Source: Maribacter aquimaris (GTDB taxonomy: Bacteria > Bacteroidota > Bacteroidia > Flavobacteriales > Flavobacteriaceae). Taken from it: a DNA stretch of 48,808 bases. Under the pieces are notes generated by a model, which was not told the DNA's origin, did not search any database, and saw only the letters and a list, made by a program, of their open reading frames with translations. The position numbers and the translations under genes are program-made. Positions 5,985 to 21,668 of the stretch are shown here, piece by piece. Position 1 is the first letter of the stretch; the number at the start of each line of letters is the position of its first letter. The stretch spans positions 1 through 48,808 of the forward strand of contig NZ_JABTCF010000018.1 of NCBI RefSeq assembly GCF_014596745.1. The letters are read 5' to 3'.

Positions 5985-8369
5985 ATGAAAACTGATACTT
6001 CGAAGATGTCCGATAAAAGTATGGACTTAGGTGAAATGCTTAAACCTTATTTAAGGAACTGGAAATGGTTTTTGCTATCAATAATTATTGCAGTTGTACT
6101 TGGGATATTTAATATACGTTATGCGGTTCCCCAATATGAGATACAGACCAAAATCCAAATTTTAGACGATCAAAGTTCTGGTTCGGAACTTGATGTGTTT
6201 CGGGACTTGGATGTCTTTGGTGGTGGAGGAAACAAGATAGAAGATGAAATAGAACTATTGAATTCAAGATCTAATCTTATCGATATTGTCAAACAACTTG
6301 GATTGAATAAAAAAATCATAGCCCTTGGTCAGATAAAGAGTTCGGAGCTTTATAATAATCCACCCTTTAATGTAAACTTTATTGCAGAGGATTCTATAAT
6401 ACATAATTCAAAGAGTGAGTTTTTTATAACCATATCTTCAGAAACAACCTTCCAATTTTCGAATGAGGAAGATGGGCCTATGGAACCCATATCTTTTGGG
6501 AAGCCCGTTACCACAGGTGTTGGGGATGTAATCATCACCCCGAATATACCTAATATAGGAGCATATAATGGGCGTAAGTATCAAGTTGCGGTTAGTCCTT
6601 TGGCCGCAGTAGCTGAGGTATATCAAAGAAAAATTGATATTTCAGTCATTGGTGAAATGTCCAATATTATCTCTATTACATTGAATGATCCGATTATTGA
6701 AAGGGGTAAGGATATTTTAAACGCCTTGGTCGCCAATTACAATCAGAATGCTGTTAATGACAAAAAAGCCATTGCAGATAGGACTTCAAATTTTATTAAT
6801 GATCGTATTGCGGATATTTATGGGGATTTATCTACTGTAGATCAAAGTGCGGAAGATTTTAAGTCTGGTAAAGGCATTGCAGATATAGCGACCCAAACCA
6901 ATGTCAATCTTAATATAGGGGCTGCCAATCAGCAGGAATTACAAAATGCTTCGGTACAGTTGGATATTGCCTCTTCCATGAAGGATATTATCGATAGTCA
7001 GGACGGGTATGAGTTGTTGCCTTCCAATATAGGTTTGGCGGATGCCTCTATTGCGAGTACAACGGCTAGATATAATGAATTGGCCTTGGAGCGCAAGCGA
7101 TTGTTGGAAAGTTCCAATGAAAAAAACCCTATTATTGTAAATTTAGACCAGCAATTGGAGGGTTTAAAACGCAGTATGCAGTCTAGTTTGGGTAGTGTGA
7201 CGAACAATTTAGGAATGCAGGTCAATAGTTTAAGTAGCCAATTATCCAAAATCAATTCACGAATCTATTCGACGCCCAAAAATGAACGGGCCTTACGCGA
7301 TATAACCCGACAACAGCAGACCACGGAACAGCTCTATTTATACCTTCTACAAAAACGGGAGGAATCCCAGATTACCTTTGCATCCGCATCCCCAAAGTCA
7401 AAAATTATAGATAATGCTTATTTATCAAGTCAATTTCCAGTTTCCCCTAAGAAACCACTTATCTTATTGGCAGCAATGATTTTCGGGTTTGTTCTGCCTT
7501 TCTCTGTGATATATGTAAAAGATCTGATGGATAATAAGGTAGAGAATAAGGTGAGTTTGGAAAAATTAACAGGCGATATCCCAGTTTTGGCTGAGTTACC
7601 CAAGATCTCTAAAAAGGAAAATACCTTGGTACAGCTAGGGGAACGTACCGTATTGGCAGAATCATTGCGAATATTGAGAACCAATTTGGATTATATCATT
7701 AAATCCAAGAAGAAACCTGGGGTTAGGGGCAATATTATATATGTGACTTCTAGTGCTTCCGGGGAAGGGAAAACGTTATTGGCATCTAATTTGGCCATGA
7801 TCTTTGCCAATACGAATAAGAAAGTATTGCTTATTGGGGCAGATATACGAAACCCGAAAATCTATCAATTCTATTCTGGTAAAAATGTGGATAAATTAGG
7901 GAAACCCGCCCGAAATAAAGAGAATATTGGACTCACGGAATTTTTAGTGGACACTACAATTGGAGGTAAGGATATTATCTCCTCAATGTTGGCCCATGAG
8001 CAAACCGTCGATGTTATTTATTCCGGGAAAATACCACCAAATCCGGCAGAACTATTAATGAACGGACGGATGAAGGAGTTATTGGATGAGGTAGTTGATC
8101 AATATGATTATATCGTTGTGGATACGGCTCCTTTGTTAGTAGTGACCGACACCTTGTTGATCAGTGAATATGCCGATCAGATACTCTATGTGACACGGGC
8201 GGGAATGACCGAATTAAAGGTATTGGATTATCCACTTAAATTGCATGCTGAAGGCAAGCTAAAAGGATTGGCTTTCGTCGTTAATGGGGTACAGGATTCC
8301 AATTTGGGGTATGGGGGAAAATACGGTTATGGCTATGGTAAAACCACCAAAAAGTGGTGGAAATTTTAA
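5985..8369 (+). CDS. Polysaccharide co-polymerase / tyrosine autokinase (Wzc-like)
   Basis: Inner-membrane protein controlling chain length and export through cycles of tyrosine phosphorylation. The N-terminal Wzz domain starts after a membrane helix at about 27-46. A long periplasmic region with coiled-coil character follows, and a second helix lies at about 490-510. The cytoplasmic BY-kinase domain has Walker A GEGKT (593-597, K596), Walker A' with D620 (LLIGADIRNP) and Walker B VVDTAP with D713. The C-terminal tail has a tyrosine cluster (Y776, Y780, Y782, Y784) for autophosphorylation. A 6-bp hairpin, CCACCA...TGGTGG, falls in the last codons (8344-8360). The CpsB-type phosphatase at 22432-23169 is the likely partner. 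Confidence 0.92.
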   Translation: MKTDTSKMSDKSMDLGEMLKPYLRNWKWFLLSIIIAVVLGIFNIRYAVPQYEIQTKIQILDDQSSGSELDVFRDLDVFGGGGNKIEDEIELLNSRSNLIDIVKQLGLNKKIIALGQIKSSELYNNPPFNVNFIAEDSIIHNSKSEFFITISSETTFQFSNEEDGPMEPISFGKPVTTGVGDVIITPNIPNIGAYNGRKYQVAVSPLAAVAEVYQRKIDISVIGEMSNIISITLNDPIIERGKDILNALVANYNQNAVNDKKAIADRTSNFINDRIADIYGDLSTVDQSAEDFKSGKGIADIATQTNVNLNIGAANQQELQNASVQLDIASSMKDIIDSQDGYELLPSNIGLADASIASTTARYNELALERKRLLESSNEKNPIIVNLDQQLEGLKRSMQSSLGSVTNNLGMQVNSLSSQLSKINSRIYSTPKNERALRDITRQQQTTEQLYLYLLQKREESQITFASASPKSKIIDNAYLSSQFPVSPKKPLILLAAMIFGFVLPFSVIYVKDLMDNKVENKVSLEKLTGDIPVLAELPKISKKENTLVQLGERTVLAESLRILRTNLDYIIKSKKKPGVRGNIIYVTSSASGEGKTLLASNLAMIFANTNKKVLLIGADIRNPKIYQFYSGKNVDKLGKPARNKENIGLTEFLVDTTIGGKDIISSMLAHEQTVDVIYSGKIPPNPAELLMNGRMKELLDEVVDQYDYIVVDTAPLLVVTDTLLISEYADQILYVTRAGMTELKVLDYPLKLHAEGKLKGLAFVVNGVQDSNLGYGGKYGYGYGKTTKKWWKF

Positions 8370-8401: not shown

Positions 8402-9262
8402 ATGAAGACATTGTTATTTGTATATCGTAAAATCAGGTCAACCCTGTCCAATATTATTTATAAGATTCGAAGTATTGGGCAATTTAAAGTTTCAGATGTT
8501 GCGAATTTACATCATATTGGGTTAAATGTCACCAATGTGGATTCGACACTTGCATTTTATGAAAAATATTTTGGTGCCAAAAGAGTAAGATATAATGGCA
8601 ATATCGATGCCCTGTTTGCCGATAATTTATTCTTATTGTTAAACCCTGTCAAGGAACCACCTTCGACCAATCAAGGTACTAGCTTATGGCATATAGGTTG
8701 GTCAGGAGAAGATGCCCAATTGGAGATGGATTGGCGGGTAAAGGAAGGCATAGAAGTACATACGCCCGTAACCGCCCTAGATGATGATCATTTCATGTAT
8801 TTTTTTGGTCCCAACAAAGAAATGGTTGAGGTTTATACCCGTAAAAAAGGACATGCCTTTGAACATATTCACTTATTGGCCTCTGATGTTGATAAAACAA
8901 TGAACTGGTTTAAATCGCACTTAGGGTTAGATCCAGTGTATAGAAAAGCAGCATTAAATCCAAACGGCTTTAAATGGAATTATTTAACCGTAAATACCAT
9001 AGATATTGTGGTATTTGGAAAACCGATAGGGAAAGAAGCCTGGTGGCCTGAAGAAGGTTTAAAGCCAACTACAGGGTCAGCTTTAGATCATATTGGATTT
9101 TCCTTTGGGAATATCGAATCCATTTATAAAGAACTGAAATCTGCAGGTACGATTATTCCCCAAGATATTAAATTTGATCCCGTTTATAATCATAAGAGTT
9201 TTTTGGTACAAGGGCCTGATGGGTTACTTATTGAAATTGTGGAGAAAAACAACCAATTATAG
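8402..9262 (+). CDS. Two-domain VOC (glyoxalase/dioxygenase fold) protein
   Basis: Two vicinal-oxygen-chelate modules are fused, and the VOC superfamily is metal-dependent. Each half keeps a plausible His-His-Glu metal set: H38 (HHIGL), H97 (WHIGW) and E143 (MVEVY) in the first, H155 (EHIHLL), H230 (DHIGF) and E278 (LLIEIVE) in the second. The first ~30 residues are basic and hydrophobic and have no VOC counterpart, possibly a membrane-proximal helix. It follows wzc by 32 bp in the same direction, so it belongs to the export operon, which is an unusual partner. The substrate is unknown; epimerase, isomerase and dioxygenase chemistry are all possible. It faces the GT2 gene tail-to-tail across 56 bp. 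Confidence 0.75.
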   Translation: MKTLLFVYRKIRSTLSNIIYKIRSIGQFKVSDVANLHHIGLNVTNVDSTLAFYEKYFGAKRVRYNGNIDALFADNLFLLLNPVKEPPSTNQGTSLWHIGWSGEDAQLEMDWRVKEGIEVHTPVTALDDDHFMYFFGPNKEMVEVYTRKKGHAFEHIHLLASDVDKTMNWFKSHLGLDPVYRKAALNPNGFKWNYLTVNTIDIVVFGKPIGKEAWWPEEGLKPTTGSALDHIGFSFGNIESIYKELKSAGTIIPQDIKFDPVYNHKSFLVQGPDGLLIEIVEKNNQL

Positions 9263-9318: not shown

Positions 9319-10284
9319 TCATTCGGCCATCTTATAATTCCCATTTTTATTAAAAAATCGATTTGTTTTATACTTTATTTCACTGATAAAATGGAGAATA
9401 ATTAATCTGGATAACACTTTTGAAAGAAAGTTATTTTTGTTTCCAAACAATAGAATTAATTCGGAAACAGCAAAATAATTGTAAAAGTGTAATATAAATC
9501 CAAAATTTCTTTCCTTTAAATTATAGGGAAACAATACGTTTTTTATGTACTTTTTCTTATCTGCATACAGTCTTTCGTTCATAAATAAAGAACTCCTATT
9601 GCCACTTATATTATCTTCATGAAGTCTGTACTGGGTTACGAACTTATCTATAAAATGGAAAGGAATACCATTGTTTATAAACCTTACCCACATAGGTAAA
9701 TCTTCCATTACCTGGTAATTCGTGTCAAAACCACCTATTTCAATAAGTGTTGGTTTATGAAAGAAGCTTGTTGTTGCATTGATTCCTGGCCATGGTCGGC
9801 TGGTAAATACTATTTTTTTTTGTTCCTCTGGTTTGGCTAACGCAATTTTCTGTAATGGCAATGGTGTAAGTTCTTTATTTCTTAAGGCATAGGCCCTTCC
9901 AAAAAGAACTTTACAATCGGGATGGGCATTACAATAATTTACAAAGTCATCAACACAGGTTTCAATTAAAATATCGTCTCCTGCAATTAATTTTAACCAT
10001 ACTCCATTTGCAGCTTTAACACTACGATTACAATTACCGATTATCCCGGTATTCTTTTCAACTTTAACTATTTCCGTTCTCTTAAAGCGATTCTTATTTT
10101 CAGCGAACCATTTTTTGCACAATTCCAGTGTATTGTCCGAGGAGCAATCATCACTAACAATCAATTCTATATTTTTATAGGATTGTGCTTTGGCACTTTC
10201 TAAGGTTTCCAAAACAAATTTGGCCGAATTATACGTAACCACCACAATGGATACCAAAGGGGTTAAGGGATTTTCATTATCCAT
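9319..10284 (-). CDS. Glycosyltransferase family 2
   Basis: Cytoplasmic inverting glycosyltransferase that adds a sugar to the lipid-linked glycan. The GT-A fold start is clear (VSIVVVTYNSAKFV), with the nucleotide-binding region SDDCSSDNT and the metal-binding acidic motif in LIAGDDILIE. A later block (GGFDTNYQVMEDLPMWVRF) matches GT2 acceptor-side features, where ED is the usual catalytic-base position. The C-terminal third is hydrophobic and basic and may lie on the membrane. It is 321 residues, starts at an ATG 34 bp after the flippase stop, and is the last gene of the minus-strand operon. It is the only glycosyltransferase I recognise in the window. Donor and acceptor are unknown. Confidence 0.88.
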   Translation of the reverse strand: MDNENPLTPLVSIVVVTYNSAKFVLETLESAKAQSYKNIELIVSDDCSSDNTLELCKKWFAENKNRFKRTEIVKVEKNTGIIGNCNRSVKAANGVWLKLIAGDDILIETCVDDFVNYCNAHPDCKVLFGRAYALRNKELTPLPLQKIALAKPEEQKKIVFTSRPWPGINATTSFFHKPTLIEIGGFDTNYQVMEDLPMWVRFINNGIPFHFIDKFVTQYRLHEDNISGNRSSLFMNERLYADKKKYIKNVLFPYNLKERNFGFILHFYNYFAVSELILLFGNKNNFLSKVLSRLIILHFISEIKYKTNRFFNKNGNYKMAE

Positions 10285-10318: not shown

Positions 10319-11812
10319 TTATTTTTTTCTGAATTTATTTATGACCCCTTTCAAATTCATTCTTTTGTCCAATGCTTTAAAGGAATACCATACTGAAGTT
10401 AAGATAAGAGGTATACCTATAACATAAGACCATGGTGCTGCAATAAATTTAGTTGTTAGAAAACAGCCTAGGGCCAAAATAAATTGAAAAACAAATATTT
10501 TCACAAAGCCTCGGTTGAAGGTAAAACCGTATTTGGTTTTGGCAATTAGGAACACTTGTAGAAGGTAAATAACATAGGCAACGATAAAGGATATACCGAG
10601 ACCTGTTAGGCCCCAATAGTAATACCCCAATATATTTGACCCTCCCAAAATAGTTATAGCAACAAGCTCATTCCAAAAGAAAAGCTTACTAGCTCCTTTG
10701 GCAAGAAAGATAAAAGCTATGGACCAACTTGCCGCTTTAAAGAACATACCAAGGGCAGCCCAGTAAACCATTGCGCTTACCCCTATGAATTGACTGGAAT
10801 ATAATAAAATGATTACCCAATCGATAAAAATTAAAAAGATGGCCAATATAGGGGCTAATATTAAAATGGCTATTTCGGCCTGTTGGTTGATCAATTCGGT
10901 AGCCTTTTCATTATCGTGGGCCACTCCAGAGAGTCTAGGGTAGTAATCAGTGGCCATTGCAGTAAAAACTAGACCCACATAATTGGTTATGATGGCGATA
11001 CCGGCATTATATAGTCCTACTTCCTCAATACCTCCTGTATTACTGATGAAAATTCGGATAATATAAGATTCACCATAGGTCATAATACCGCTTAAACTGA
11101 GCATAAACCCCATAAGCATCATTCCCTTTCCTAGAACTTTTGTTTCTTTAAAGGATACATTGATTTTCTGAATATTTATCTTTCTGGAAAAGTGCCAGTT
11201 TACGATAAAAGTCATAAGTGCTGTTAAAATGATGGCAGGAACAATACCCTCTAATTCAAGATAATAGTATAATGGAATTGATATCAATAAACCAAAAGCA
11301 GAACCCAACATATTGGCCTTCGCCAAGTGGTTCAATTTTCGTAAACCCTGTAACAGAACATACTGTCCACTAGTTAGCTGATTAAATATCAAAGTGATTG
11401 AAAGCCACCTAAAGGCTATGGTATAGTCAGTATTTCCAAACGATAATTCACTAAGCCAAGGTGCAAGCACAAGGGTTACCAGAGCACCCAGGAGGCCTGT
11501 AATCCAGACCAATCTTTGCATAACGACAATAACACTTGCAATTTGATGGTTATCCTCACTTTCATTGGCTGCAGCAATATCCTTTACAGCACTGGTTTTC
11601 AAACCAAAATTGGTCAAGGAACCGACCAATGTAATGGTTGAAGTTAAAAGTCCGGCGATACCCATCCCCGCCGGTCCCAATAAAAGCGCTATGACTTTGG
11701 ATCGAACAATGGAAATTATTATGTTGAAAACTTGAACACCCCCAAAAATGGAGGTCGCCTTCATAATCTGTCTATAACTGCTTTTTTTACCTGAAGCACT
11801 GTTTTTAGTCAT
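10319..11812 (-). CDS. Wzx-type O-antigen/lipid-linked glycan flippase
   Basis: Polytopic membrane protein of 497 residues with about 12-14 hydrophobic segments spread over its whole length. This is typical of the Wzx/MATE-like polysaccharide transporter superfamily, which moves undecaprenyl-linked repeat units across the inner membrane. N-terminal features include [18 protein letters not shown] and [15 protein letters not shown], usual for O-antigen translocases of this type. It overlaps the upstream aminotransferase gene by 8 bp, so the two are translationally coupled. The pairing of an aminotransferase with a flippase suggests that the amino sugar is part of the translocated unit. No Wzy polymerase is recognised beside it. 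Confidence 0.88.
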
Positions 11813-12908
11813 TATAACAATTTAGTGATTTGACCACTTGTTCTATTTCAGCATCGGTCATTACAGCACTTATGGGCAAACTCAATACTTCTTTGTGTAT
11901 CTGTTCGGTAATAGGAAGGTGTAAATCCTTATATTCTTTATAGGCTTCCTGTTTGTGGGGAGGAATAGGGTAGTGGATAAGGGTCTGAACACCTTGGTCT
12001 AACAGGTGTTTTTGTAATTTATCCCTATTTTTTGTCCGGATTACGAATAAATGCCAAACGTGCCCATCTTCATGTATAACCTCTGGCAATACGATTGACG
12101 GCGTGGTGATATGCTCCAAATAATAGTTAGCTACTTTTCTCCTGCCCGCTATATCTTCTTGTATATATTTCAGTTTTACATTTAAAAAGGCTGCCTGTAT
12201 TTCATCAAGACGTGAGTTAAGCCCTTGGTAAATATTTTCGTATTTTTTGTGGGAACCATAATTGGCCAATGCCCGTATGGCAAGGGATAATTTTTCATCG
12301 TTCGTAGTGACCGCACCGGCATCACCCAAAGCCCCTAAGTTTTTACCGGGATAAAAACTATGTCCGCCGGCATCGCCAAGAGCACCAGATACTTTGCCAT
12401 GCCATTGTGCCCCATGGGATTGAGCCCCATCCTCAATAAGTTTTAAACCATATTTATCACAGATATCCAACATCTGCTGATCTATTGAGATTTGACCATA
12501 CAAATGCACGGTAAGGACGGCCTTTGTTTTTGGGGTAATGGCAGCTTCAATCTTGGAAGCATCCAAATTAAATGTGTTTATATTGGGCTCAACAAATACA
12601 GGGGTAAGTTCATTATCCGTAACAGCTAAAATTGAAGCAATGTACGTATTGGCAGGAACGATTACCTCATCACCCTTTTGCATGATACCGAGTTCTATGT
12701 ACCCTTTGAGAATCAACCGAAGGGCATCCAAGCCATTGGCAACCCCTATAGTGTGCCCCGTTTTGCAAAATTCATTGTAATCACTTTCGAATGAGGCCAG
12801 TTCTTTTCCCATTAAATACCAACCTGAGTCAATGACCCTGTCAGCGGCCTGTTTTAGCTCTTGGGCATAGCAGGCGTTTATTTTTTGAAGATCTAAAAAT
12901 TTTATCAC
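11805..12908 (-). CDS. DegT/DnrJ/EryC1/StrS sugar aminotransferase (FdtB/QdtB-like)
   Basis: PLP-dependent aminotransferase of nucleotide sugars. With the FdtA-like isomerases and RfbA/RfbB in the same block, the likely reaction is amination of a dTDP-3-keto-6-deoxyhexose to the 3-amino-3,6-dideoxy sugar (Fuc3N or Qui3N type). K189 in [15 protein letters not shown] is the Schiff-base lysine. D160 and Q163 (EDGAQSHGA) bind the cofactor. ANGLDALRL near residue 58 is the phosphate-cup region. The 367-residue length is normal. The 3-position is inferred from the neighbours; family members that act at C4 look similar. The start is an ATG at 12908, 190 bp downstream of the ACP gene. Confidence 0.88.
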
Positions 12909-13098: not shown

Positions 13099-13314
13099 TT
13101 ACAATTTAGAGTCGATCAATTCCTTTAATCCAAGAATGGTTTCCGAGCCTTCAATTTCTTCAGCAGACAAGCTAATCCCATATTCACCGGCACAAAAATC
13201 AATAACCATTAAAATGGTCATTGAATCCCAACTCTCAAAGGACGTAAGCGAATCGTTTAAATCAACGCTATCCACTTCCAAAAATTCCGTCATGGTTGAT
13301 AAGTATTTTTCCAT
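13099..13314 (-). CDS. Acyl carrier protein (ACP 1)
   Basis: Small acidic protein of 71 residues. S31 in the ESWDSMTIL motif is the expected site for 4'-phosphopantetheine attachment. Helix 2 follows (MTILMVIDFCAGEYGI), with an acidic loop after it (LSAEEIEG). It is slightly short for an ACP but has all the helices. It lies 5 bp after the KASIII-like gene, which makes it the probable carrier for that enzyme. It is distinct from the second ACP at 14977-15216, so the pathway may hold two different acyl intermediates. It is not a fatty-acid-synthesis ACP by context, since no fab genes are nearby. Confidence 0.85.
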   Translation of the reverse strand: MEKYLSTMTEFLEVDSVDLNDSLTSFESWDSMTILMVIDFCAGEYGISLSAEEIEGSETILGLKELIDSKL

Positions 13315-13319
13315 AAAAT

Positions 13320-14387
13320 CTATTTATAATTAATTTTTTCACAAAAGCTTAGATTCCCTAACGTCATCAACATGGATGTCCAGCTTAATCCTATTCCAAA
13401 TCCGGCCATGCAGATTAAATATGAGTTAGTTTTTAATTGATCACCAAGATTGTGTGCTATTGTGGTAGGGATGGTTACACTACTGGCGTTTCCGAAATTC
13501 TCGACCACATTGGTCGGTAGTTTTTCTTCAGGGACTTCCAATTGCTTGGTTAACTGTTTTAACATGAATTTGTTGGGCTGATGGAACATGAAATAATCAA
13601 TCTGTTCTTTGTTTTTACCCGCTTTATCCAATAAGTTATCGATCATTGGTGGTACTTCCCGTATTACGAAATTATAAATCAAATCGCCTTTCATCTCTAA
13701 ATGATCCAATGATTTGACATTTCCTGATTTATCCGTGACCAACTTTGCCGTTTCTTCAGTGGAAGGCATTTTGAAGCCTCCTGCAGGGATTATCAAGGCA
13801 TCGGCACCGGTTCCATCACTTTTTACGGAACCATGGATGACACCACCGTTAGGGTCGTTCTCAACAATGGTTATGGCAGCGCCATCCCCAGTCAATGGAC
13901 CACTACTTCGATCACTTTTGGAAACCTTGGCACTTAATATGTCGGCATTGAGGACCACAACTTTATTGATTTCATCTTGCTCTAAAAGCATAAAGGCCTG
14001 GCTAAGACCAGTTACGTATCCTCCACAACCTTGATTTATATCAATACAGACCATATCTTGTTTAAGTCCGAGTCTTCCATGTATTATGTAACTGGTTGCA
14101 GGCATCAGATGATCCGGTGATTGTGAAATCAAAATCATCGCATCAATATCATCTTTGTCCAATAATTTTTTATCGAAAAGGTAATTCAATCCAAAAACAC
14201 ATAAATCAGATGTCGTGGTTCCTTGCTTAACAACACGTCGTTTGTTATAACCCATGACCATTTTGAGTTTCATGGATTGACCTTTTGAGAAACCATAGTT
14301 TGCTATTTCGTCGTCAAATTTGATTTCATCTTCACCCAACACGGTTAGGATTCCGGTTATTTTTTTGTTCTTAAATTTTAAATTCAT
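13320..14387 (-). CDS. 3-oxoacyl-ACP synthase III-like (FabH/KASIII family) enzyme
   Basis: Thiolase-fold condensing enzyme or acyltransferase. The triad is intact: C121 (NQGCGGYVTGL), H269 (FHQPNKFML) and N300 (ENFGNASSV). A C-terminal glycine-rich loop reads CMAGFGIGLSW. Its 355 residues are a little longer than housekeeping FabH, with extra sequence at the N-terminus (EIKFDDEIANYGFSKGQ). This is seen in secondary-metabolism KASIII relatives. The genes around it are ACP1 directly downstream and VOC, ACP2 and FkbH-like upstream. It could join an acyl-CoA to malonyl-ACP, or form C-C and C-O bonds on glyceryl-ACP as KASIII enzymes do in tetronate pathways. The choice between these is inference. 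Confidence 0.85.
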   Translation of the reverse strand: MNLKFKNKKITGILTVLGEDEIKFDDEIANYGFSKGQSMKLKMVMGYNKRRVVKQGTTTSDLCVFGLNYLFDKKLLDKDDIDAMILISQSPDHLMPATSYIIHGRLGLKQDMVCIDINQGCGGYVTGLSQAFMLLEQDEINKVVVLNADILSAKVSKSDRSSGPLTGDGAAITIVENDPNGGVIHGSVKSDGTGADALIIPAGGFKMPSTEETAKLVTDKSGNVKSLDHLEMKGDLIYNFVIREVPPMIDNLLDKAGKNKEQIDYFMFHQPNKFMLKQLTKQLEVPEEKLPTNVVENFGNASSVTIPTTIAHNLGDQLKTNSYLICMAGFGIGLSWTSMLMTLGNLSFCEKINYK

Positions 14388-14533
14388 CTTGAAACAATGG
14401 TTTAATTAGTTATAAACGGTAATTTAACTAAGGGCCTATTCTATAATGGATAATTTAATCAACAATCCTATTTCATAAGACCTTTAAACTGTATTGGTAA
14501 CAAACAAAACTTACCAAATACATTTACATATCA

Positions 14534-14956
14534 TTATTTTTCTATCAATTCAATAAGATGACCGTCCGGTGTAAACAAAAATGCACATAGCTTGCCTTCA
14601 AATGCTTCTGAATTGAAAACATCCAACGATTTGTAATTTAACTCTTCTAATTGATGGATCGAATGACGAATATCAATTACTTTATAGGCAACATGATAAT
14701 AGGTAATTCTTTTTTTTAAAAGTTTGGAAACAACGGAATCATCCCCTAAGGGCTGAACAAGTTCTAAAAAACTGTTCTCTCCATTTTTAACGAAACAAAC
14801 TTTAACCTTTTGTGTACTTACCTCATAAATTTCTGAAATACTTTCTTTTCCAAAAACAACACTAAAATGTTCTAGTGAGGATACTATATCGGTAACAAGA
14901 ACACCCACATGATGAAAATCGAGACCAAATGAACTATTTTGAATTGGATTGCCCAT
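14534..14956 (-). CDS. Small VOC protein, methylmalonyl-CoA-epimerase-like
   Basis: Single-chain VOC protein of 140 residues with two beta-alpha-beta modules. Putative metal ligands are H16 (HHVGVL), E65 (SFLELVQ), H88 (YHVAY) and E136 (HLIELIE). Methylmalonyl-CoA epimerases carry His-Gln-His-Glu at the equivalent places, so this protein has Glu where they have Gln. It lies 20 bp after ACP2 and 146 bp before the KASIII-like gene. A natural guess is that it epimerises or isomerises an acyl-ACP or acyl-CoA made by its neighbours. The start is an ATG two residues before NPIQ. The substrate cannot be read from the sequence. Confidence 0.75.
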   Translation of the reverse strand: MGNPIQNSSFGLDFHHVGVLVTDIVSSLEHFSVVFGKESISEIYEVSTQKVKVCFVKNGENSFLELVQPLGDDSVVSKLLKKRITYYHVAYKVIDIRHSIHQLEELNYKSLDVFNSEAFEGKLCAFLFTPDGHLIELIEK

Positions 14957-14976
14957 AGAATTATCCGTTGATATAA

Positions 14977-15216
14977 TTAAATTTTACTACTTATGGAATC
15001 GATGATCTCACTGATATCTTTCCAATTTTGGATTTCATTGGAAGCAAAATGGATATCAAATCTTTTTTCAATGGCCACTACCAATAAAATATGTATAATC
15101 GAATCCCATTCTTCTATATCAGCTGCTTGGGTGGTTTCTTTAAGTACGATATCTTTATCATCCATCGTATCGATGAATATTTCATTTATTCCTGCCAGTA
15201 TTTCATTTCTTGTCAT
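14977..15216 (-). CDS. Acyl carrier protein (ACP 2), partner of the FkbH-like enzyme
   Basis: ACP of 79 residues with S39 in IEEWDSIIHILL as the phosphopantetheine site. The helix VVAIEKRFDIHF follows. It starts 4 bp after the FkbH-like gene stops, a tight coupling that makes it the likely acceptor of the glyceryl (or related) group loaded by that enzyme. FkbH/ACP gene pairs of this kind are established in polyketide glyceryl-ACP pathways. Its sequence differs clearly from ACP1 outside the DS motif, so the two are probably not interchangeable. Confidence 0.88.
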   Translation of the reverse strand: MTRNEILAGINEIFIDTMDDKDIVLKETTQAADIEEWDSIIHILLVVAIEKRFDIHFASNEIQNWKDISEIIDSISSKI

Positions 15217-15220
15217 ATAA

Positions 15221-16945
15221 CTATTGCTTAACTTTAATATAATTGGTTTTAAATTGATATTTGTCTACTTCCAGAGTAAAATAAGAATGGTCTTTAGTAA
15301 ATCCTAAGTTATGATAATGGTCTTTCATCATTGGGTTTTTTGCAGTAGGGATATATTCCCCTTTAATGGTCGTAAATCCATTCTCTTTTGCAAAATCGAC
15401 TATTGTATTCAATACAAAATTCTCCATCCCCCGTTTGAGAACCCTACAACTCATAAACCAGGTATCGACAAATAATGTTTTTTCATTTTCTTTATGTAAA
15501 ATAATAGCGCAAATTAGGCCATTGTCACCGAATTTATCTTCCAAAGTAAATGAAAAAGTAGCATAATCCCCGGAGTTTGAAATTCGCTCAATATCCGCTT
15601 CTGAATAGCGAACGGTCCTAAGGTTAAATTGATTGGAACGTTGTGAGAGTTGCGCTATTCTAGGTGTATTGAATTTATTAAAAGGTTCAACAGTTGAAAC
15701 CATTTCCAAATTTTTCAAAAAGTCATCTTCATTTGTGAACTTTTGAGCGATTTTCGCCCGCTCTGCCTCAATTTGATAAAGCTTGGTACGTTCAGCATCC
15801 TCATTAGAGAAAGAAACGGTTTCAAAAAGATTCAACCCATATAGGAATTCGAGATAGTTGGCAGGATCTTCGGGCATTTCGGGAACACATATTTCTGGAA
15901 TGTTTTCCCTTACAATATTCCGTTCAAATGGGTTGTCATCCAAAAACACCATGGAATCAAAACCTATGTTCAGAATGTTTTGGATTTGCCGAATATTATC
16001 CGCTTTATTTTCCCAATTGGCAATAAAAACAGAAATATCCTCCAACCGTAAAACCATATCCGGATGTTTCTCAAAGGGTTCCTTTGCAACGGACTCCGTA
16101 TTCTTGCTACATACGGCAACAATAATTCCACGGTTTTTTAATTTCTTGATCCAATATTGAAATTCTGAAAAGGCCTTGCCTATGCCCAAGCTTCCAATTT
16201 GAATGTTTTCGAGGCCATCGTCACCGATAATACCCCCCCAGGTCGTATTGTCCAAATCTAGAATTACACACTTTTTGAACTTACCGTTAAGTGTGCTTAT
16301 CAAATCAATTGTTTTTGAAGCAACCTTGGGTAAAATATCAATACCTAAAACCATTTCTGTATTTATATACAGCGCAGGTTGAAACATGTTTGATTTTCCA
16401 ACTTGGTTTTGGATGGAAGAAATATCACAGAGGTATAAATTTGGATTCTTTGAAGCCAATTCCATTAGATTGAAATTTAGCTTCCGTAATTGATACAAAA
16501 ATGAAGACGCTGTTTTGTTGGCATGGTTACCAAAAACGGCATCATCGATTTCAGTATAATTGAAGTAAATGATTTTCGCATCAAGATTATTGGTAATCGT
16601 ATTACAAATGGTTTCAATGGAAGAAATCTCTTTTGTTGCCAACAAAGCATATTCCTCTGGCTTTAATTTGTTGTATTTCCCCAATAGTTTATGCGAGGAT
16701 TGAAATACGATTACATATTCCGGTTTAAAATCATAGAGTTCGGAAGACGGGTCATAAACCTGTCTTTCAATTTGATTGAAATCAGCCTCCCAAATATCAA
16801 GGTTCATGGCGTAATCGTAACCAAGACCTTTTATAGCCTGTGTAAGGAACTGCGTAGCCGTATCCCCTAAAACTGCCAATTTGATAGTCTTAAAACCGGA
16901 GAAATCTTTTTTGATGTTTTTCTTAAGTTGTAAAAAATCTTTCAC
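15221..16945 (-). CDS. FkbH-like HAD-IIIC domain protein (glyceryl-/acyl-ACP loading type)
   Basis: Protein of 574 residues with the three-part FkbH architecture. An N-terminal region begins LAVLGDTATQFL (SGNH-like). A HAD-IIIC domain carries D230-L-D232-N-T234 (DLDNTTWGGIIGDDG), CSKN at about 279-282 and FLDDNPFER (D336, D337). A C-terminal GNAT-like domain includes LEDKFGDNGLI and MSCRVLKRGMENF. In studied pathways FkbH enzymes take 1,3-bisphosphoglycerate, dephosphorylate it and load glyceryl on ACP; some relatives give lactyl-ACP. All HAD motif I residues are intact, so activity is expected. It is coupled to ACP2 by 4 bp. Upstream, a 251-bp gap separates it from the GNAT gene; that gap shows a short coding-like fragment but no gene. 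Confidence 0.87.
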   Translation of the reverse strand: MKDFLQLKKNIKKDFSGFKTIKLAVLGDTATQFLTQAIKGLGYDYAMNLDIWEADFNQIERQVYDPSSELYDFKPEYVIVFQSSHKLLGKYNKLKPEEYALLATKEISSIETICNTITNNLDAKIIYFNYTEIDDAVFGNHANKTASSFLYQLRKLNFNLMELASKNPNLYLCDISSIQNQVGKSNMFQPALYINTEMVLGIDILPKVASKTIDLISTLNGKFKKCVILDLDNTTWGGIIGDDGLENIQIGSLGIGKAFSEFQYWIKKLKNRGIIVAVCSKNTESVAKEPFEKHPDMVLRLEDISVFIANWENKADNIRQIQNILNIGFDSMVFLDDNPFERNIVRENIPEICVPEMPEDPANYLEFLYGLNLFETVSFSNEDAERTKLYQIEAERAKIAQKFTNEDDFLKNLEMVSTVEPFNKFNTPRIAQLSQRSNQFNLRTVRYSEADIERISNSGDYATFSFTLEDKFGDNGLICAIILHKENEKTLFVDTWFMSCRVLKRGMENFVLNTIVDFAKENGFTTIKGEYIPTAKNPMMKDHYHNLGFTKDHSYFTLEVDKYQFKTNYIKVKQ

Positions 16946-17196: not shown

Positions 17197-17766
17197 TCAT
17201 TCTTCCATTTGAAACAATTTCAAATATTTTGTTCTATGTGCCTTGAAATTTTCATAATCAGACTCGAAGTAATGACTGTGCTCATCCTCTCCTGTGAACT
17301 TAGGATTGTAAGATTTGCAATACCATAAAACACGTTTGTTTTTTTTCATGGTTGACATTTTACAGATCTTGCAATCAAGGTGTTCAAAAGCCAAGGCTTT
17401 TGTAAACAATTCCCCTAGAACGGCTACATTTGAACCTGCATCCGGACTGTATAACCAACTACCGAACTCAAAGGTATCTTCTGAAACATTGTATATTCGA
17501 TTTAATCCAAGTTTGGTCTTTTTGTCCTCCTTTATGCATATGACGTAAAAGTCCTCTCCTTTCGCTTCCCGAATTTTATATTCCTTGATCCATTTGATCT
17601 GTTCTTCAATATCGGTACTTGTTGGATTTATATGCTTGGAAAGTTTTTCATTATTTCGCAGGGAAAGTATGAATTCCGCATCTTCAATTTCTACCAGACG
17701 GAAATAGCAACCATATGCGTTCGCAGGCAAAAGATCATCTATTATTTTTTTTCTATTATTGACCAT
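17197..17766 (-). CDS. GNAT-family N-acyltransferase (sugar-modifying type)
   Basis: Single-domain GNAT protein of 189 residues. The N-terminal part reads YFRLVEIEDAEFILSLRN, followed by HINPTSTDIEEQIKWI. This arrangement is seen in PseH-like and other amino-sugar N-acetyltransferases and in RimJ/RimL relatives. A cofactor-binding region lies around SPDAGSNVAVLGELFTKAL. In this operon the most economical role is acylation of the 3-amino group of the dTDP-sugar, with acetyl-CoA or the ACP-borne acyl group as donor; this is inference. A neighbouring GNAT/FemAB-type gene lies 132 bp away, so the two may share or divide this job. Confidence 0.75.
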   Translation of the reverse strand: MVNNRKKIIDDLLPANAYGCYFRLVEIEDAEFILSLRNNEKLSKHINPTSTDIEEQIKWIKEYKIREAKGEDFYVICIKEDKKTKLGLNRIYNVSEDTFEFGSWLYSPDAGSNVAVLGELFTKALAFEHLDCKICKMSTMKKNKRVLWYCKSYNPKFTGEDEHSHYFESDYENFKAHRTKYLKLFQMEE

Positions 17767-17898: not shown

Positions 17899-18921
17899 TT
17901 AATGGTGATGATGATTCTGAATCAATTTCCGATCATCACAATTAATGCTTTTTTCCAATAGGATATAGTTTTTCGTTTCTATTTCAAAGGTGTCGATCGA
18001 AAAAGCCCTGGCACCAAAACTTTCTTTCCAATTTAATAATCCAAGGTTAAGACCATTATCGTCAAATGAAGTTCCAAAATCAAAATAATTCTTGTGTTTA
18101 AAATACCTTTCAATCAATTCAAGGTATAATAAATCGGAAGCTCCTGAATGCCTTCCTTCTTCATTCGCGGAATTATATTGAACCCGCACAACGTTAGCTG
18201 TCTCGAATAATGTAGCTCCCGCTACAATCGTATCATTCAAATAGGCATTGAATTGATGAATGTTTTTCGGGAATGAATTATGTAACTTGGTGATTTCCTC
18301 TACGGTATGGGCGGGTTTCGCACTATATTTACAATTTAGATTCGGCATCAATATATTGTTCCAATAATCATCAAATGTATCTACCTCCTTAATAACCACT
18401 CCCATCTTCATGGCTCTTCTGGCCAATCTCAATCGGGTTCTGTTCATTTCCAATTTATCATTTAAATTGATTACAGAGGAAAATTGCCGTACTGTTAATT
18501 TAGCCTTGATTAAATATTTGGCATATGTAATTTCTTCTGAACCAATTGAATTGTAAAATTTATGAAATGATTTATAAATAATCTTTTCTATTTTACTCGA
18601 TTTTAGAACAAATAGAATTTTATAAACGATTTGGAGGGTTTTATGGAGAACTTCCGTTTTCCGGAGTATTATGCCACCATAACTTAGTCCAAAATGAGAG
18701 GCAATGGTATTTTCATCAATTTTATGGGCAGGAAACGCGGCTATTGGTAAGTTATTTTCAAAAACAATTAAAGAACAATCCTCATATCGATCTTTATGAT
18801 AATCCATAAAATCCCTTTTAAATAAGAATGTGGAATTTTTGGAATGATCGATGAAGTCATCCCAAATCTCTTTGTCCTCTTTTCGATATTTTCTAACTGT
18901 AATTGTTGGTAACCCTTCCAT
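17899..18921 (-). CDS. FemAB/GNAT_6-like acyltransferase
   Basis: Protein of 340 residues with two GNAT-like halves, as in the FemAB superfamily. The second half is the most recognisable: FNAYLNDTIVAGATLFE, then QYNSANEEGRHSGASDLLY, FDFGTS and LLNWKESFGA. Such proteins transfer acyl or aminoacyl groups to amino groups and are common in Bacteroidetes glycan loci. Its start codon overlaps the stop of the cupin gene by one base (TAATG), so it is translationally coupled. The C-terminus ends in four histidines (QNHHHH), encoded by alternating CAC/CAT and probably only a quirk. The acyl donor is unknown. Confidence 0.75.
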   Translation of the reverse strand: MEGLPTITVRKYRKEDKEIWDDFIDHSKNSTFLFKRDFMDYHKDRYEDCSLIVFENNLPIAAFPAHKIDENTIASHFGLSYGGIILRKTEVLHKTLQIVYKILFVLKSSKIEKIIYKSFHKFYNSIGSEEITYAKYLIKAKLTVRQFSSVINLNDKLEMNRTRLRLARRAMKMGVVIKEVDTFDDYWNNILMPNLNCKYSAKPAHTVEEITKLHNSFPKNIHQFNAYLNDTIVAGATLFETANVVRVQYNSANEEGRHSGASDLLYLELIERYFKHKNYFDFGTSFDDNGLNLGLLNWKESFGARAFSIDTFEIETKNYILLEKSINCDDRKLIQNHHHH

Positions 18922-19331
18922 TATAAAAGCTTCGTATATTCTAAAAATGAATCATAATCCCTTAAATAATCATTTTCATCATAGGTATGGGATGCCAATA
19001 CCAGACAAATGGCGCCCGATGAAAAATTTACTTCCGAAGCCCATATGCCCGGAGGAATATGTAAGCCCCTATAGGGTTGATTCAACATCGCTGTTTTTTT
19101 TACTTTACCATCATCCATTTGTACCTCAAAACTGCCTGATGCGGCAATTAAAAATTGGTGACACTGTTTATGGGCGTGGGCACCTCTACTTTCTCCACCC
19201 GGAATATCGTACAAATAAAAAATTCGTTTGGCTTCAAATGGAATCTCTATATTATTCTCGATGGGCGTAATATTGCCAGACCTATTTTGAATTCGAGGTA
19301 GCTCAATAAGGGAACAATCAAATACCGTCAT
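18921..19331 (-). CDS. FdtA/QdtA-type dTDP-4-keto-6-deoxyglucose 3,4-ketoisomerase
   Basis: Cupin of 136 residues. The signature IPGGESRGAHAHKQCHQ holds H52 and H54 in the H-A-H pattern that contains the catalytic histidines of FdtA and QdtA. These enzymes convert dTDP-4-keto-6-deoxyglucose to the 3-keto isomer, which is then aminated. IPPGIWA and the C-terminal DENDYLRDYD are also typical. It overlaps the paralogous cupin upstream by 14 bp and the FemAB-like gene downstream by 1 bp. I cannot decide between the galacto (FdtA) and gluco (QdtA) product. This member, rather than its paralogue, is the likely catalyst because it keeps both histidines. Confidence 0.85.
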   Translation of the reverse strand: MTVFDCSLIELPRIQNRSGNITPIENNIEIPFEAKRIFYLYDIPGGESRGAHAHKQCHQFLIAASGSFEVQMDDGKVKKTAMLNQPYRGLHIPPGIWASEVNFSSGAICLVLASHTYDENDYLRDYDSFLEYTKLL

Positions 19332-19734
19332 TTTCTTTCAATTTTAGTTTCAAAAATTCATCTTTGTCCCGTATATAATCATTTTCATCAAAGGAAGTGC
19401 TTGAAACGACCAATGCTAACGTGTTTGTTGCAAAATTCTCCATACGACGCCATAATCCATTGGGAATGTATAACCCGTAGTATGAGCGGTTCAATGAGTA
19501 TTTTTTCTCTTCCACGCCATCAAATACGGCAACATCCAAACTACCTGACAAAACTACAATAAATTCGTTTTGTTCTTTAAAGGCATGCCCGCCCCTTGTT
19601 TCACCTCCCGGAACGTCATAAATCCAATAGGTTCGCTTAATGTCGAATGGAATTTGATTGCTACTTTCAAAAAAACTTAAGTTCCCCCTAGGATCAAGAA
19701 TTTTTGGCAGTTCAATAATTTGGGCCTTTTTCAT
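19318..19734 (-). CDS. FdtA/QdtA-like cupin paralogue lacking one catalytic His
   Basis: Cupin of 138 residues, clearly paralogous to the next gene in the operon (VPGGETRGGHAFKEQNEF against IPGGESRGAHAHKQCHQF). H50 aligns with the first catalytic histidine, but the second is replaced by F52. The downstream His (H58 in the paralogue) is N56 here. The rest is well kept, including IPNGLWRRMENF and DENDYIRDKDEFL, so the gene is not decaying. It could be a heteromer partner, an epimerase-like variant or a binding protein. It overlaps rfbA by 4 bp (ATGA) and the next cupin by 14 bp. Confidence 0.82.
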   Translation of the reverse strand: MKKAQIIELPKILDPRGNLSFFESSNQIPFDIKRTYWIYDVPGGETRGGHAFKEQNEFIVVLSGSLDVAVFDGVEEKKYSLNRSYYGLYIPNGLWRRMENFATNTLALVVSSTSFDENDYIRDKDEFLKLKLKENDGI

Positions 19735-20597
19735 GCTTCGGATATTGCTTTCAAGATATAAGTTCCGTAACCGCTTTTTCCATATTTTTCAGCAATCTTT
19801 ATGGCTTGTTTCTTGTCAATATAGCCATGTAAGTATGCGATTTCTTCAATACATGCTATTTTATTGCCCGTACGTTTTTCCATTACCCTCACAAATTCAG
19901 AGGCATCATCCATAGCATCTACGGTACCTGTGTCTAACCAAGCCATTCCTCTCTCCATGATACCAACTTCCAACTCTCCATTGTCCAGATACATTTGATT
20001 AAGACTGGTGATTTCTTTTTCCCCCCTTGCCGACGGTTTTACCTTCTTTGCATATTCCACGACTTTATTATCATAAAAATACAATCCAGGAATCGCATAG
20101 GTGGACTTTGGTTCCTGTGGTTTTTCTTCAATACTAATGACTTTTTGTTCTTTATCAAATTCAACAACCCCGTATCTTTCCGGGTCATTCACAGGATAAG
20201 CAAAAATAGAGGCACCATCAATATTGGTTTTACTCCTTAATAATCTACCTAATCCATGACCATAAAAAATATTATCGCCTAAAACAAGGGCAACCCTATC
20301 GTCACCTATAAATTTTTCTCCTATTATAAAAGCCTCAGCCAATCCGTTAGGTTCTGGTTGTACAGCATATTCGAATTTACATCCTACTTGGGAGCCATCC
20401 CCCAAAAGGTTCTTAAATGCCTCTTGGTCGTGAGGCGTGGTAATTATTAGTATTTCCCGAATTCCGGCTATCATTAAAACCGATAACGGATAATAAATCA
20501 TGGGTTTGTCATATACAGGCAACAATTGCTTGCTAATTGATATGGTAATGGGGAAAAGTCTGGTTCCTGAACCTCCTGCTAAAATTATTCCTTTCAT
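19731..20597 (-). CDS. rfbA: Glucose-1-phosphate thymidylyltransferase
   Basis: Makes dTDP-glucose from dTTP and glucose-1-phosphate. The nucleotide-binding motif is LAGGSGTRLFPIT (residues 6-18). Further family blocks are KPMIYYPLSVLM, LGDNIFYGHG and EEKPQEPKS, then GLYFYDN and AWLDTGTVDAM. The 288-residue length is standard and no key motif is missing. It follows rfbB by 3 bp and overlaps the first cupin gene by 4 bp, so transcription and translation are coupled. No rfbC or rfbD is present, so the pathway leaves the rhamnose route after the 4-keto intermediate and goes to an amino sugar. Confidence 0.95.
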   Translation of the reverse strand: MKGIILAGGSGTRLFPITISISKQLLPVYDKPMIYYPLSVLMIAGIREILIITTPHDQEAFKNLLGDGSQVGCKFEYAVQPEPNGLAEAFIIGEKFIGDDRVALVLGDNIFYGHGLGRLLRSKTNIDGASIFAYPVNDPERYGVVEFDKEQKVISIEEKPQEPKSTYAIPGLYFYDNKVVEYAKKVKPSARGEKEITSLNQMYLDNGELEVGIMERGMAWLDTGTVDAMDDASEFVRVMEKRTGNKIACIEEIAYLHGYIDKKQAIKIAEKYGKSGYGTYILKAISEA

Positions 20598-20600
20598 GTT

Positions 20601-21668
20601 TTATTGATATTGTTTTGTATAATATTTTTGGTAGGCCCCACTCGTTACATTATTGAGCCACTCTTCGTTGTTCAAATACCAATCTATGGTTTTGGATAGG
20701 CCTTCCTCAAAGGTTACCGTAGGGCTCCAATCCAACTCTTTGTTGATCTTACTGGCATCGATGGCATAACGTAAATCATGTCCGGGCCGGTCTTTTACAT
20801 AAGTGATGAGTTGCTCGCTACTGCCTATTTCCCTTCCTAGCTTTTCGTCCATATGTTGGCAAAGTAATTTTACCAAATCAATATTCTTCCACTCATTGAA
20901 ACCACCAATATTATAGGTCTCTTTGCCTTTTCCCTTGTGAAATACCAGGTCGATGGCTATAGCATGATCGATCACATACAGCCAGTCCCTTGTGTAATTT
21001 CCATCCCCGTAAACAGGTAGTGGTTTGTGATGGATTATATTATGTATGAACAAGGGTATTAATTTTTCTGGAAATTGGTTTGCCCCATAATTGTTGGAGC
21101 AATTGGTGATCACATAAGGAAGGTCGTATGTTTCCCCATAGGCCCTTACGAAATGATCTGAACTTGCTTTCGATGCAGAATAGGGGGAATTGGGGTCATA
21201 GGAGGTTGTTTCTTCAAATAATCCGGTTTTTCCCAAGGTGCCATATACTTCATCGGTACTAATATGGTAAAAGCGTTTTCCCTCCCAGTATTTACCCCAT
21301 AATTCCTTAAATGCATTCAAAAGGATCATGGTACCTAAAATATTGGTTTTGGCGAATGCCAAAGGGTCACTTATCGATCGGTCGACATGTGACTCTGCCG
21401 CCAAATGAATTACCCCTTCAAAACGGAATTCCTTGAAAATATCATTTACGAATTTTTCATCGGTAATACTACCTTGGATAAAGGTGTAATTTTCCTTATC
21501 CTCTATATCCTTTAGGTTTTCCAAATTCCCGGCATACGTCAACGCGTCCAGATTGTAAATCCGGTATTCGGGATATTTTGTAACGAATCGTCTAACGACA
21601 TGGGACCCAATGAATCCAGCACCGCCTGTGATTAATATATTCTTGGTCGTTTTACTATGTTCTGTCAT
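20601..21668 (-). CDS. rfbB: dTDP-glucose 4,6-dehydratase
   Basis: Converts dTDP-glucose to dTDP-4-keto-6-deoxyglucose. It is an SDR enzyme of 355 residues with GGAGFIGSH (residues 15-23). The catalytic set is T138-D139-E140 in STDEVYG, with Y163 and K167 in YSASK. SHVDRSI and NNYGANQFPEKLIPL are RfbB-specific blocks. It is the first gene of the minus-strand sugar operon, so its promoter should lie in the 763-bp region toward the phosphatase gene, where two decayed coding stretches are also visible. Confidence 0.95.
   Translation of the reverse strand: MTEHSKTTKNILITGGAGFIGSHVVRRFVTKYPEYRIYNLDALTYAGNLENLKDIEDKENYTFIQGSITDEKFVNDIFKEFRFEGVIHLAAESHVDRSISDPLAFAKTNILGTMILLNAFKELWGKYWEGKRFYHISTDEVYGTLGKTGLFEETTSYDPNSPYSASKASSDHFVRAYGETYDLPYVITNCSNNYGANQFPEKLIPLFIHNIIHHKPLPVYGDGNYTRDWLYVIDHAIAIDLVFHKGKGKETYNIGGFNEWKNIDLVKLLCQHMDEKLGREIGSSEQLITYVKDRPGHDLRYAIDASKINKELDWSPTVTFEEGLSKTIDWYLNNEEWLNNVTSGAYQKYYTKQYQ

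Follow-up and report, generated by a model that had tools for sequence, protein, structure and literature searches.

N-hydroxyacyl 3-amino-3,6-dideoxyhexoses are the end products of the FdhC/QdhC pathway, which gives Fuc3N(R3Hb) and Qui3N(R3Hb) in E. coli O103, Hafnia and Acinetobacter (accessible parts of PMC4869667 and PMC3726653). Here, FdhC and QdhC are the 3-hydroxybutanoyl transferases for Fuc3N and Qui3N (PMC4869667, in the parts accessible), and the Fuc3N(R3Hb) gene set is also described in the accessible text of PMC3726653. The present study concerns a related locus in a 48,808-nucleotide stretch of Maribacter aquimaris DNA (assembly GCF_014596745.1, contig NZ_JABTCF010000018.1, positions 1 to 48,808), which is called the window. 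At its center is a minus-strand cassette of five genes (13099-16945) encoding FkbH, an acyl carrier protein (ACP1), a VOC protein, the ketosynthase KASIII and a second carrier protein (ACP2), within a dTDP-3-amino-6-deoxyhexose polysaccharide locus. The donor in the FdhC/QdhC pathway is 3-hydroxybutanoyl-CoA, whereas the window would make its acyl group with the dedicated FkbH/ACP/VOC/KASIII/ACP set. RmlA, FdtA, FdtB and a transferase of the FdhC kind are common to both (PMC4869667 and PMC3726653, as far as their accessible parts go). The probable product of the gene set is an unusual hydroxylated acid, derived from a glycolysis intermediate and then attached to an amino sugar of the surface polysaccharide; that intermediate would thereby be linked, via polyketide-type chemistry, to bacterial surface-sugar decoration.

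Three further systems are close. The R1-group cassette of the F. psychrophilum O-polysaccharide (wfpC-wfpG, 3,5-dihydroxyhexanoyl) likewise places KAS, ACP and acyltransferase genes in a strain-variable amino-sugar locus of the Flavobacteriaceae, but it has two KAS, an ACP and a reductase, the sugar is Qui2NAc4N and the transferase is PglD-like (PMC6519341, accessible parts). The word FkbH is absent from the main text of that paper, as far as it is accessible. A preliminary description of the window, made from the sequence, had called its decorated glycan not described for this group; amino-sugar R-groups made by KAS and ACP are known from the Flavobacteriaceae (PMC6519341, same parts). The glycerate-utilisation operon of tetronate biosynthesis, which is defined by five genes, likewise uses FkbH and ACP to make glyceryl-ACP beside a KASIII-like gene (accessible parts of PMC7489565). 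Finally, pseudaminic acid on C. jejuni flagellin carries di-O-methylglyceric acid, which is likewise a glyceric acid on a bacterial amino sugar, but methylated and un-elongated (PMC3068675, in part). On FkbH-loaded acylation of O-antigen or polysaccharide sugars nothing relevant was found in the open-access literature, most subscription papers lying outside the search.

The cassette and its conservation

Gene calls were confirmed by the listing of open reading frames (ORFs), by sequence and by profile searches. FkbH (15221-16945, GTG start, 574 aa) retains an intact DLDNT motif and belongs to the FkbH glyceryl-ACP synthase family (TIGR01686, 305 bits against a cut-off of 146.65; FkbH_N, PF21211, 269 bits; PDB 3slr, BF1531, 500 bits), which makes it the predicted loader. 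ACP1 (14977-15216) lies 4 bp after FkbH and is followed by the VOC gene (14534-14956; Glyoxalase_4, PF13669, 50 bits). KASIII (13320-14387; ACP_syn_III_C, 80 bits) begins 146 bp after VOC and ACP2 (13099-13314) 5 bp after KASIII. ACP1 scores weakly in ACP models (22 bits, NCBIfam) and has no Pfam family match, while ACP2 has no family match in Pfam or NCBIfam (E 0.001); both carry the D-S phosphopantetheine motif and align with other stand-alone ACPs. The catalytic triad of KASIII, C121-H269-N300, is invariant in 10/10 close relatives and is that of an elongating KASIII (FabH). Here, the Asn is presumed to be N300 (the N of GN) from its position in FabH, with N297 nearby.

In order of transcription, the minus strand encodes RmlB, RmlA, two FdtA-like proteins, a FemAB-like GNAT, an Acetyltransf_3 GNAT, the five cassette proteins, an FdtB-like protein, a flippase and a family 2 glycosyltransferase (GT2). 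The one-strand run reported earlier, its ACP 4 bp past an FkbH with intact DLDNT, its KASIII with an intact Cys-His-Asn triad and the amino-sugar genes around it (RfbAB, FdtA-like and GNAT genes on one side, aminotransferase and flippase on the other) were all confirmed, the last by Pfam and PDB matches and, for RmlA and RmlB, by names we presume from their sequences.

The gene order from RmlB to the flippase is identical in Maribacter luteus (L009; fetched loci carry L numbers), whose KASIII is 93% identical. Against this locus the ratio of nonsynonymous to synonymous substitution (dN/dS) was 0.026-0.098 for 10/11 gene pairs, as rough values, dS being >0.8 throughout. The FdtA2 pair gave no value, as the lengths differ, and RmlB, the flippase and GT2 were outside the comparison. 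These ratios indicate strong purifying selection on all five cassette genes, and since the same order occurs in L009 with low dN/dS, the order of the cassette is not due to chance. Gene relics were sought in four intergenic gaps, and no blastx match at E 0.01 was found against the ORFs of the fetched loci. A promoter and terminator scan (68 against 54.5, standard deviation 7.5, and 14 against 9.9, standard deviation 3.3, in shuffles) was not used.

Partners exchanged around the ketosynthase

At E 1e-60 or better, KASIII was found in 4/11 other genomes of the genus and in 0/87 further relatives (99 genomes including self); at E 1e-90 it was found in 0/393 other Bacteroidota genomes (394 including self). 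A scan of named genomes, which reaches no further than close relatives, yielded six loci, including the two from Maribacter, and a plasmid search added a copy in Paenibacillus (L043, 54% identity). FkbH at E 1e-20 occurs in 3/12 genomes of the genus, self included, and always beside KASIII. The distribution of the cassette is patchy, as usual for surface-glycan genes. Ten close KASIIIs, with 53-100% identity, form a 100/100 clade, and clear polysaccharide genes surround 8 of these 10; L013, a short contig, has a weak GT2 match.

The loader beside KASIII differs among the ten loci. It is FkbH in three (the window, L009 and L010) and an AMP-binding enzyme in six (L011, L012, L014, L015, L016 and L043), and L013, whose contig begins 1 kb upstream, shows none. 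The AMP-binding calls come from Pfam for L011 and L012 and from 42-70% identity to L012 for L014, L016 and L043; both loaders tested (L012, L015) scored above the cut-off of the amino-acid adenylation model TIGR01733. The carrier proteins next to the loaders vary with them. In a tree of 31 ACPs, ACP1 groups with 10 other FkbH-adjacent ACPs (92/96), including some whose loci have no KASIII, and six DltC-like ACPs of the other loci form a separate group (100/99). The ACPs behind KASIII, ACP2 included, take no resolved place in that tree. Such an ACP is present in 8/10 loci, and ACP2, the predicted malonyl and product carrier, is 49-58% identical to those of L010, L013, L015 and L016. From these comparisons, loader and loader-ACP are exchanged jointly between FkbH and the amino-acid adenylation enzyme, while KASIII, usually with its own ACP, stays. 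This joint exchange is best accounted for if KASIII accepts a range of polar starters delivered by the loader ACP.

The transferase varies as well. An FdhC-like GNAT is present in the window, L009, L011, L012 and L014, accompanied in 5/5 of these loci by an FdtB-like gene, and a hexapeptide transferase in L010, L013, L015 and L016; L011, L014 and L043 hold an AAC(3)-like acyltransferase gene. Gene order in related loci shows that KASIII is conserved while the loader, the tailoring enzyme and the last transferase are each swapped as a unit. This natural exchange shows how surface-sugar decorations diversify, and the swapping of single parts among related bacteria suggests a modular kit by which surface chemistry is varied.

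In the preliminary description, the group made by this module was taken to be a hydroxyacyl or tetronate-like one; FkbH, ACP and KASIII stand together in the glycerate-utilisation operon too (PMC7489565, accessible parts). The comparison was made with six plasmid clusters (L065, L067-L070, L072; KASIII-FkbH-ACP), labelled tetronate-type by gene content, none of them characterised. Their six KASIIIs form a 100/100 clade of their own, apart from that of the window (26 rows), and replace His269 by Pro in 6/6, whereas His is kept in the other 20/26 rows, the window included. In the FkbH tree (30 rows) the window belongs to a group of 23 (96/99), mostly from glycan-like loci, the context of L060-L062 being not established, and the six tetronate-type FkbHs fall outside; these are not one clade (L070 is apart), and L071, which has sugar genes, is a long branch among them. 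The two tailoring genes of the operon, an Agg4-type acyltransferase and an Agg5-type dehydratase, were sought with the E2-type (L069, L070) and alpha/beta-hydrolase (L069) genes, which we took as Agg4/Agg5-like; these gave no tblastn match at E 0.1 in the window, whereas queries with the tetronate FkbH and KASIII did match. Of the glycerate-utilisation operon, then, the window has homologues of FkbH and the stand-alone ACP, together with a KASIII of another kind and with sugar genes. A tetronate attached to the sugar is therefore largely refuted by sequence and is highly improbable. A methoxymalonyl-ACP pathway was also rejected, its two dehydrogenases and O-methyltransferase being absent from the 23 window proteins scanned with Pfam, with the remaining genome outside the scan. 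No polyketide synthase was found among the window proteins scanned.

The VOC protein and its replacement by MaoC and SDR

FkbH homologues at E 1e-60 or better were present in 18/392 Bacteroidota and 17/395 Flavobacteriales genomes, with self in both sets and three others shared. The pooled set, subjected to one scan, comprises 31 non-self loci in 30 genomes. Within 3 kb of FkbH there is an ACP in 29, a VOC in 9 and a MaoC in 9 (L060 weak). VOC and MaoC occur together in 0/31 (hypergeometric 0.025, or 0.041 without L060), which taken alone is a modest statistic. Positional swaps are the stronger evidence. The order ACP-VOC-KASIII of the window and L009 is ACP-MaoC-SDR-KASIII in L010. L058 reads KASIII-SDR-VOC-ACP-FkbH and L056 reads KASIII-SDR-[MaoC-SDR fusion]-ACP-FkbH; here, the shared parts are 71-84% identical (KASIII 84%, SDR 80%, FkbH 78%), and no similarity was found between the L058 VOC and the L056 fusion. 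Within one genus, L140 and L142 have ACP-VOC-MBOAT where L139 and L143 have ACP-MaoC-SDR-MBOAT. An SDR match accompanies MaoC in 8/9 loci, the contig of L137 ending at that point. Chemically, the expected product of MaoC and SDR is lactyl, through dehydration and reduction of the glyceryl group. KASIII lies within 3 kb of FkbH in 4/31 loci and anywhere in the fetched stretch in 8/31, and 7/9 VOC loci are without KASIII within 3 kb (in L140 and L142 it lies 5-6 kb away), which ties VOC to the FkbH product.

In L140, L142 and L145 a methyltransferase stands between FkbH and ACP. These FkbH-methyltransferase-ACP-VOC-MBOAT operons are candidates for making O-methylated glyceryl esters on exported glycans. 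FkbH also stands beside sugar-acylation genes in L150, which has the order hexapeptide transferase, ACP, KASIII, VOC, FkbH, ACP, SDR, sugar transferase, DegT, RmlB-like and RmlA-like. As a VOC partner, the aldo-keto reductase of L050 was rejected: of the 35 stretches searched, only L050 itself and L061 gave a match, that of L061 being weak and not near FkbH.

The metal ligands of VOC, assigned as H16, E65, H88 and E136 on our assumption that the H/E/H/E pattern of glyoxalase I applies, are all present; H16, H88 and E136 occur in 8/8 rows and E65 in 7/8. A search of 392 Bacteroidota genomes with VOC alone gave 39 genomes with a match at E 1e-11, self included, and the best non-self match adjoins FkbH (L057). 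As a rough background, the genome itself holds two VOC matches at E 0.01 in 4.86 Mb. In the VOC tree (38 rows) all 11 FkbH-near Bacteroidota VOCs and L094 form a 100/99 clade apart from the 25 others, among them the genome's own second copy. The 11 are those of the nine loci, the window and L009, with L140, L142, L145, L149 and L150 found after the group was defined. The alphaproteobacterial L046 VOC is outside the clade, and some branches are long. This tree explains the lack of FkbH in the 17 further VOC neighborhoods fetched. A plain methylmalonyl-CoA epimerase was rejected, as VOC scores 58.6 bits with TIGR03081 (cut-off 114.95) and the clade is apart from the other copy in the genome.

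The closest solved structures, 3hdp and 2qh0, are annotated as glyoxalase I, and VOC might be a bystander or a detoxifier of methylglyoxal outside acyl synthesis. We consider this improbable: the clade is separate from other VOC copies, the gene is near FkbH in 9/31 loci and its position is taken over by MaoC and SDR. Instead, though we hold this tentatively and at somewhat less than an even chance, the clade may consist of metalloenzymes acting on ACP-bound acyls, as a glyceryl-ACP/2-hydroxyacyl-ACP epimerase or dehydratase, and exchanged with MaoC and SDR in a surface-glycan acylation kit across Bacteroidota. To our knowledge no ACP-tailoring activity is known in the VOC superfamily, and such activity is possibly new.

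Proposed transfer and assembly of the acyl group

The sugar pathway is encoded by RmlB (dTDP-glucose 4,6-dehydratase, 20601-21668, 91% identical to L009) and RmlA (glucose-1-phosphate thymidylyltransferase, 19731-20597, 95% identical), which we presume from their sequences, without a profile scan; by FdtA1 (19318-19734; PF05523, 163 bits) and FdtA2, an FdtA-type 3,4-ketoisomerase (18921-19331; PF05523, 180 bits; PDB 7n67, 5tpu, 2pa7); and by an FdtB-like dTDP-sugar 3-aminotransferase of the DegT family (11805-12908; PF01041, 340 bits; PDB 7n63, 5u1z and QdtB 3frk), all on the minus strand. The Acetyltransf_3 GNAT (17197-17766, minus strand), a predicted sugar 3-N-acyltransferase, has FdhC as its closest solved relative by sequence (phmmer 87 bits, E 1.2e-23; the sole other match was PseH, 20.8 bits, E 0.0025) and by fold, and is thus of the FdhC type. 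In Foldseek its model (pLDDT 85) gave FdhC at ranks 1 and 2, with 5ktc first at E 2e-15 and the first non-FdhC structure at 3e-9. The 5ktc structure is FdhC with CoA and 3-[(R)-3-hydroxybutanoylamino]-3,6-dideoxy-D-galactose. A hydroxyacyl amide on the 3-amino sugar, whichever the hydroxyacyl, has good support from homology, because the GNAT is closest to FdhC, known for 3-hydroxybutanoyl transfer to Fuc3N. Of the hydroxyacyl or tetronate-like group first proposed for the 3-amino sugar, the hydroxyacyl part stands on the RmlA/RmlB/FdtA/FdtB homologues and the FdhC-like GNAT; the tetronate part does not. As to the lipid decoration also suggested there, no sign of a long acyl chain was noticed, in an analysis that made no test of chain length.

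The acyl group itself may be made by a serial assembly line that yields one sugar substituent, a proposal to which we give close to an even chance. Each of its reactions is predicted. FkbH would take glyceryl from 1,3-bisphosphoglycerate and load it onto ACP1, as its family, intact motif and ACP pairing suggest. VOC, judged by its family and its exchange with MaoC and SDR, would then work at the alpha-carbon of the hydroxyacyl thioester carried by ACP1, through an enediolate bound to the metal, and would most likely convert the D-glyceryl center to L; an elimination that gives pyruvyl is the alternative. KASIII would condense this starter with malonyl-ACP2 to 4,5-dihydroxy-3-oxopentanoyl-ACP2, which a housekeeping reductase, invoked because the module has no dedicated one, may reduce to the 3-hydroxy form. 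The FdhC-like GNAT, by homology, would form the amide between the acyl and N3 of the dTDP-3-amino-3,6-dideoxyhexose, the product of RmlA, RmlB, FdtA and FdtB, and the decorated sugar would enter a Wzx-dependent polysaccharide. The predictions are a role of FkbH outside antibiotic pathways, an effect of VOC on an ACP-bound acyl and the identity of the N-acyl group on the Maribacter polysaccharide.

Several observations weigh against this assembly line. Its weakest points are that the window has no dedicated ketoreductase, whereas L010, L056, L058 and L150 have SDRs; that a second acyltransferase-like gene, the FemAB-like GNAT (17899-18921, minus strand; PF13480, 28.5 bits; TIGR03019, 38 bits, under the cut-off), stands beside the FdhC-like one and allows two separate acyl groups; and that the di-O-methylglyceric acid of C. 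jejuni, whose locus we take to hold a KASIII gene, is un-elongated, so that KASIII need not elongate. FemAB-like proteins are also found in L015 (two above cut-off) and L016 (one, with a second hexapeptide protein), and FdhC is shown with CoA (5ktc title), not with an ACP donor. L012 and L043 are without ACP2, the gaps flanking the L012 KASIII yielded no reading frame for an ACP, and the KASIII of L043 lies among genes not tied to polysaccharides. The structure model of KASIII is poor (pLDDT 62), and a fold search with it (4efi, 3gwa) adds nothing beyond the sequence result. For VOC, the 31 FkbH loci do not count as independent samples, since one genome supplies two of them and one genus several. 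In addition, 17 further VOC-match neighborhoods, including L117 and the genome's own second copy, showed no FkbH, and the L055 VOC is on the strand opposite FkbH, followed by a 2Fe-2S thioredoxin-like gene. At L117 (G386) the VOC (L094) adjoins an AMP-binding enzyme, two FemAB-like proteins and an NAD-synthase-like protein, and no FkbH was found there. Separately, this arrangement suggests that the VOC family may serve loaders other than FkbH.

The two acyltransferase-like genes would also fit two parallel donors: FkbH, ACP1 and VOC would supply a glyceryl-type group to the FemAB-like protein, while KASIII and ACP2 would make acetoacetyl or 3-hydroxybutyryl from acetyl-CoA for the FdhC-like GNAT. 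This is consistent with the 3-hydroxybutanoyl known for FdhC, with FkbH-ACP-VOC sets lacking a KASIII within 3 kb in 7/9 VOC loci and with the FemAB-like proteins found next to the L117 VOC as well as in L015 and L016, both of which have KASIII. We regard it as unlikely, if a serious contender, as KASIII is kept with two different upstream loaders, each with its own ACP, which is unexpected if no loaded starter is needed; L010, moreover, has one acyltransferase among its labelled genes, only part of its genes having been profiled.

Further, KASIII might be a transacylase, passing glyceryl on from ACP1 to either ACP2 or the sugar, forming no C-C bond and giving a glyceryl amide or its epimer. 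CerJ-like KASIII transacylases are a precedent. In C. jejuni the acid is un-elongated although the flagellin locus, by our assumption, holds FkbH, KASIII and ACP genes; PRK12880 and FkbH families were found in 0/14 control genomes each, so that this gene comparison stays an assumption, and we know of no VOC in that glyceric-acid system. L059, an independent case of FkbH in sugar acylation, reads PseH-VOC-FkbH-ACP-PseI, with PseH and PseI above cut-offs and no KASIII in the fetched stretch. The Cys-His-Asn triad, however, is intact as in elongating FabH, the SDR and MaoC genes that accompany KASIII in related loci fit beta-keto processing and a separate FdhC-like N-acyltransferase is present, all of which make a transacylase distinctly unlikely.

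Neighboring genes and additional observations

The flippase is of the Wzx type (10319-11812; PF13440, 70.5 bits) and is followed by GT2 (9319-10284; PF00535, 83 bits), both on the minus strand. To the left of the locus, on the plus strand, Pfam places genes for polysaccharide export and assembly: Polysacc_synt_2 (3227-5161), Poly_export (5197-5973) and a Wzc-like gene (5985-8369). Beside the last is a second, two-domain VOC protein of 286 aa (8402-9262, plus strand); homologues of it lie close to the L009 (67%) and L015 (60%) glycan loci. To the right, a SelO-type protein adenylyltransferase is encoded at 27117-28688 (plus strand).

The tandem FdtA-like pair, and with it the difference between its two copies, recurs in L009, L011, L014 and L063. 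In the window the first copy has HAF, an altered active-site His, in place of the HAH of the second; L063 has HSY at this point. The altered FdtA1 is under purifying selection (dN/dS 0.031); it may catalyze a different reaction or act in a hetero-oligomer. FemAB-like (Acetyltransf_6) proteins recur near the KASIII or VOC of the kit (window 17899-18921; L015 1275-3577; L016 13454-14608; L117 6642-8875) and may be a second transferase or act on something else.

Among other FkbH loci, L066, from a plasmid of Erwinia rhapontici, holds annotated short HAD-IIIC (FkbH-like), MaoC, SDR and ACP fragments beside an aminotransferase and an AAC(3)-type gene and appears decayed. L047, from pSymB of Sinorhizobium meliloti, has an FkbH homologue near an MBOAT-like gene, and 40/108 of the plasmid records with an FkbH match are from Sinorhizobium.

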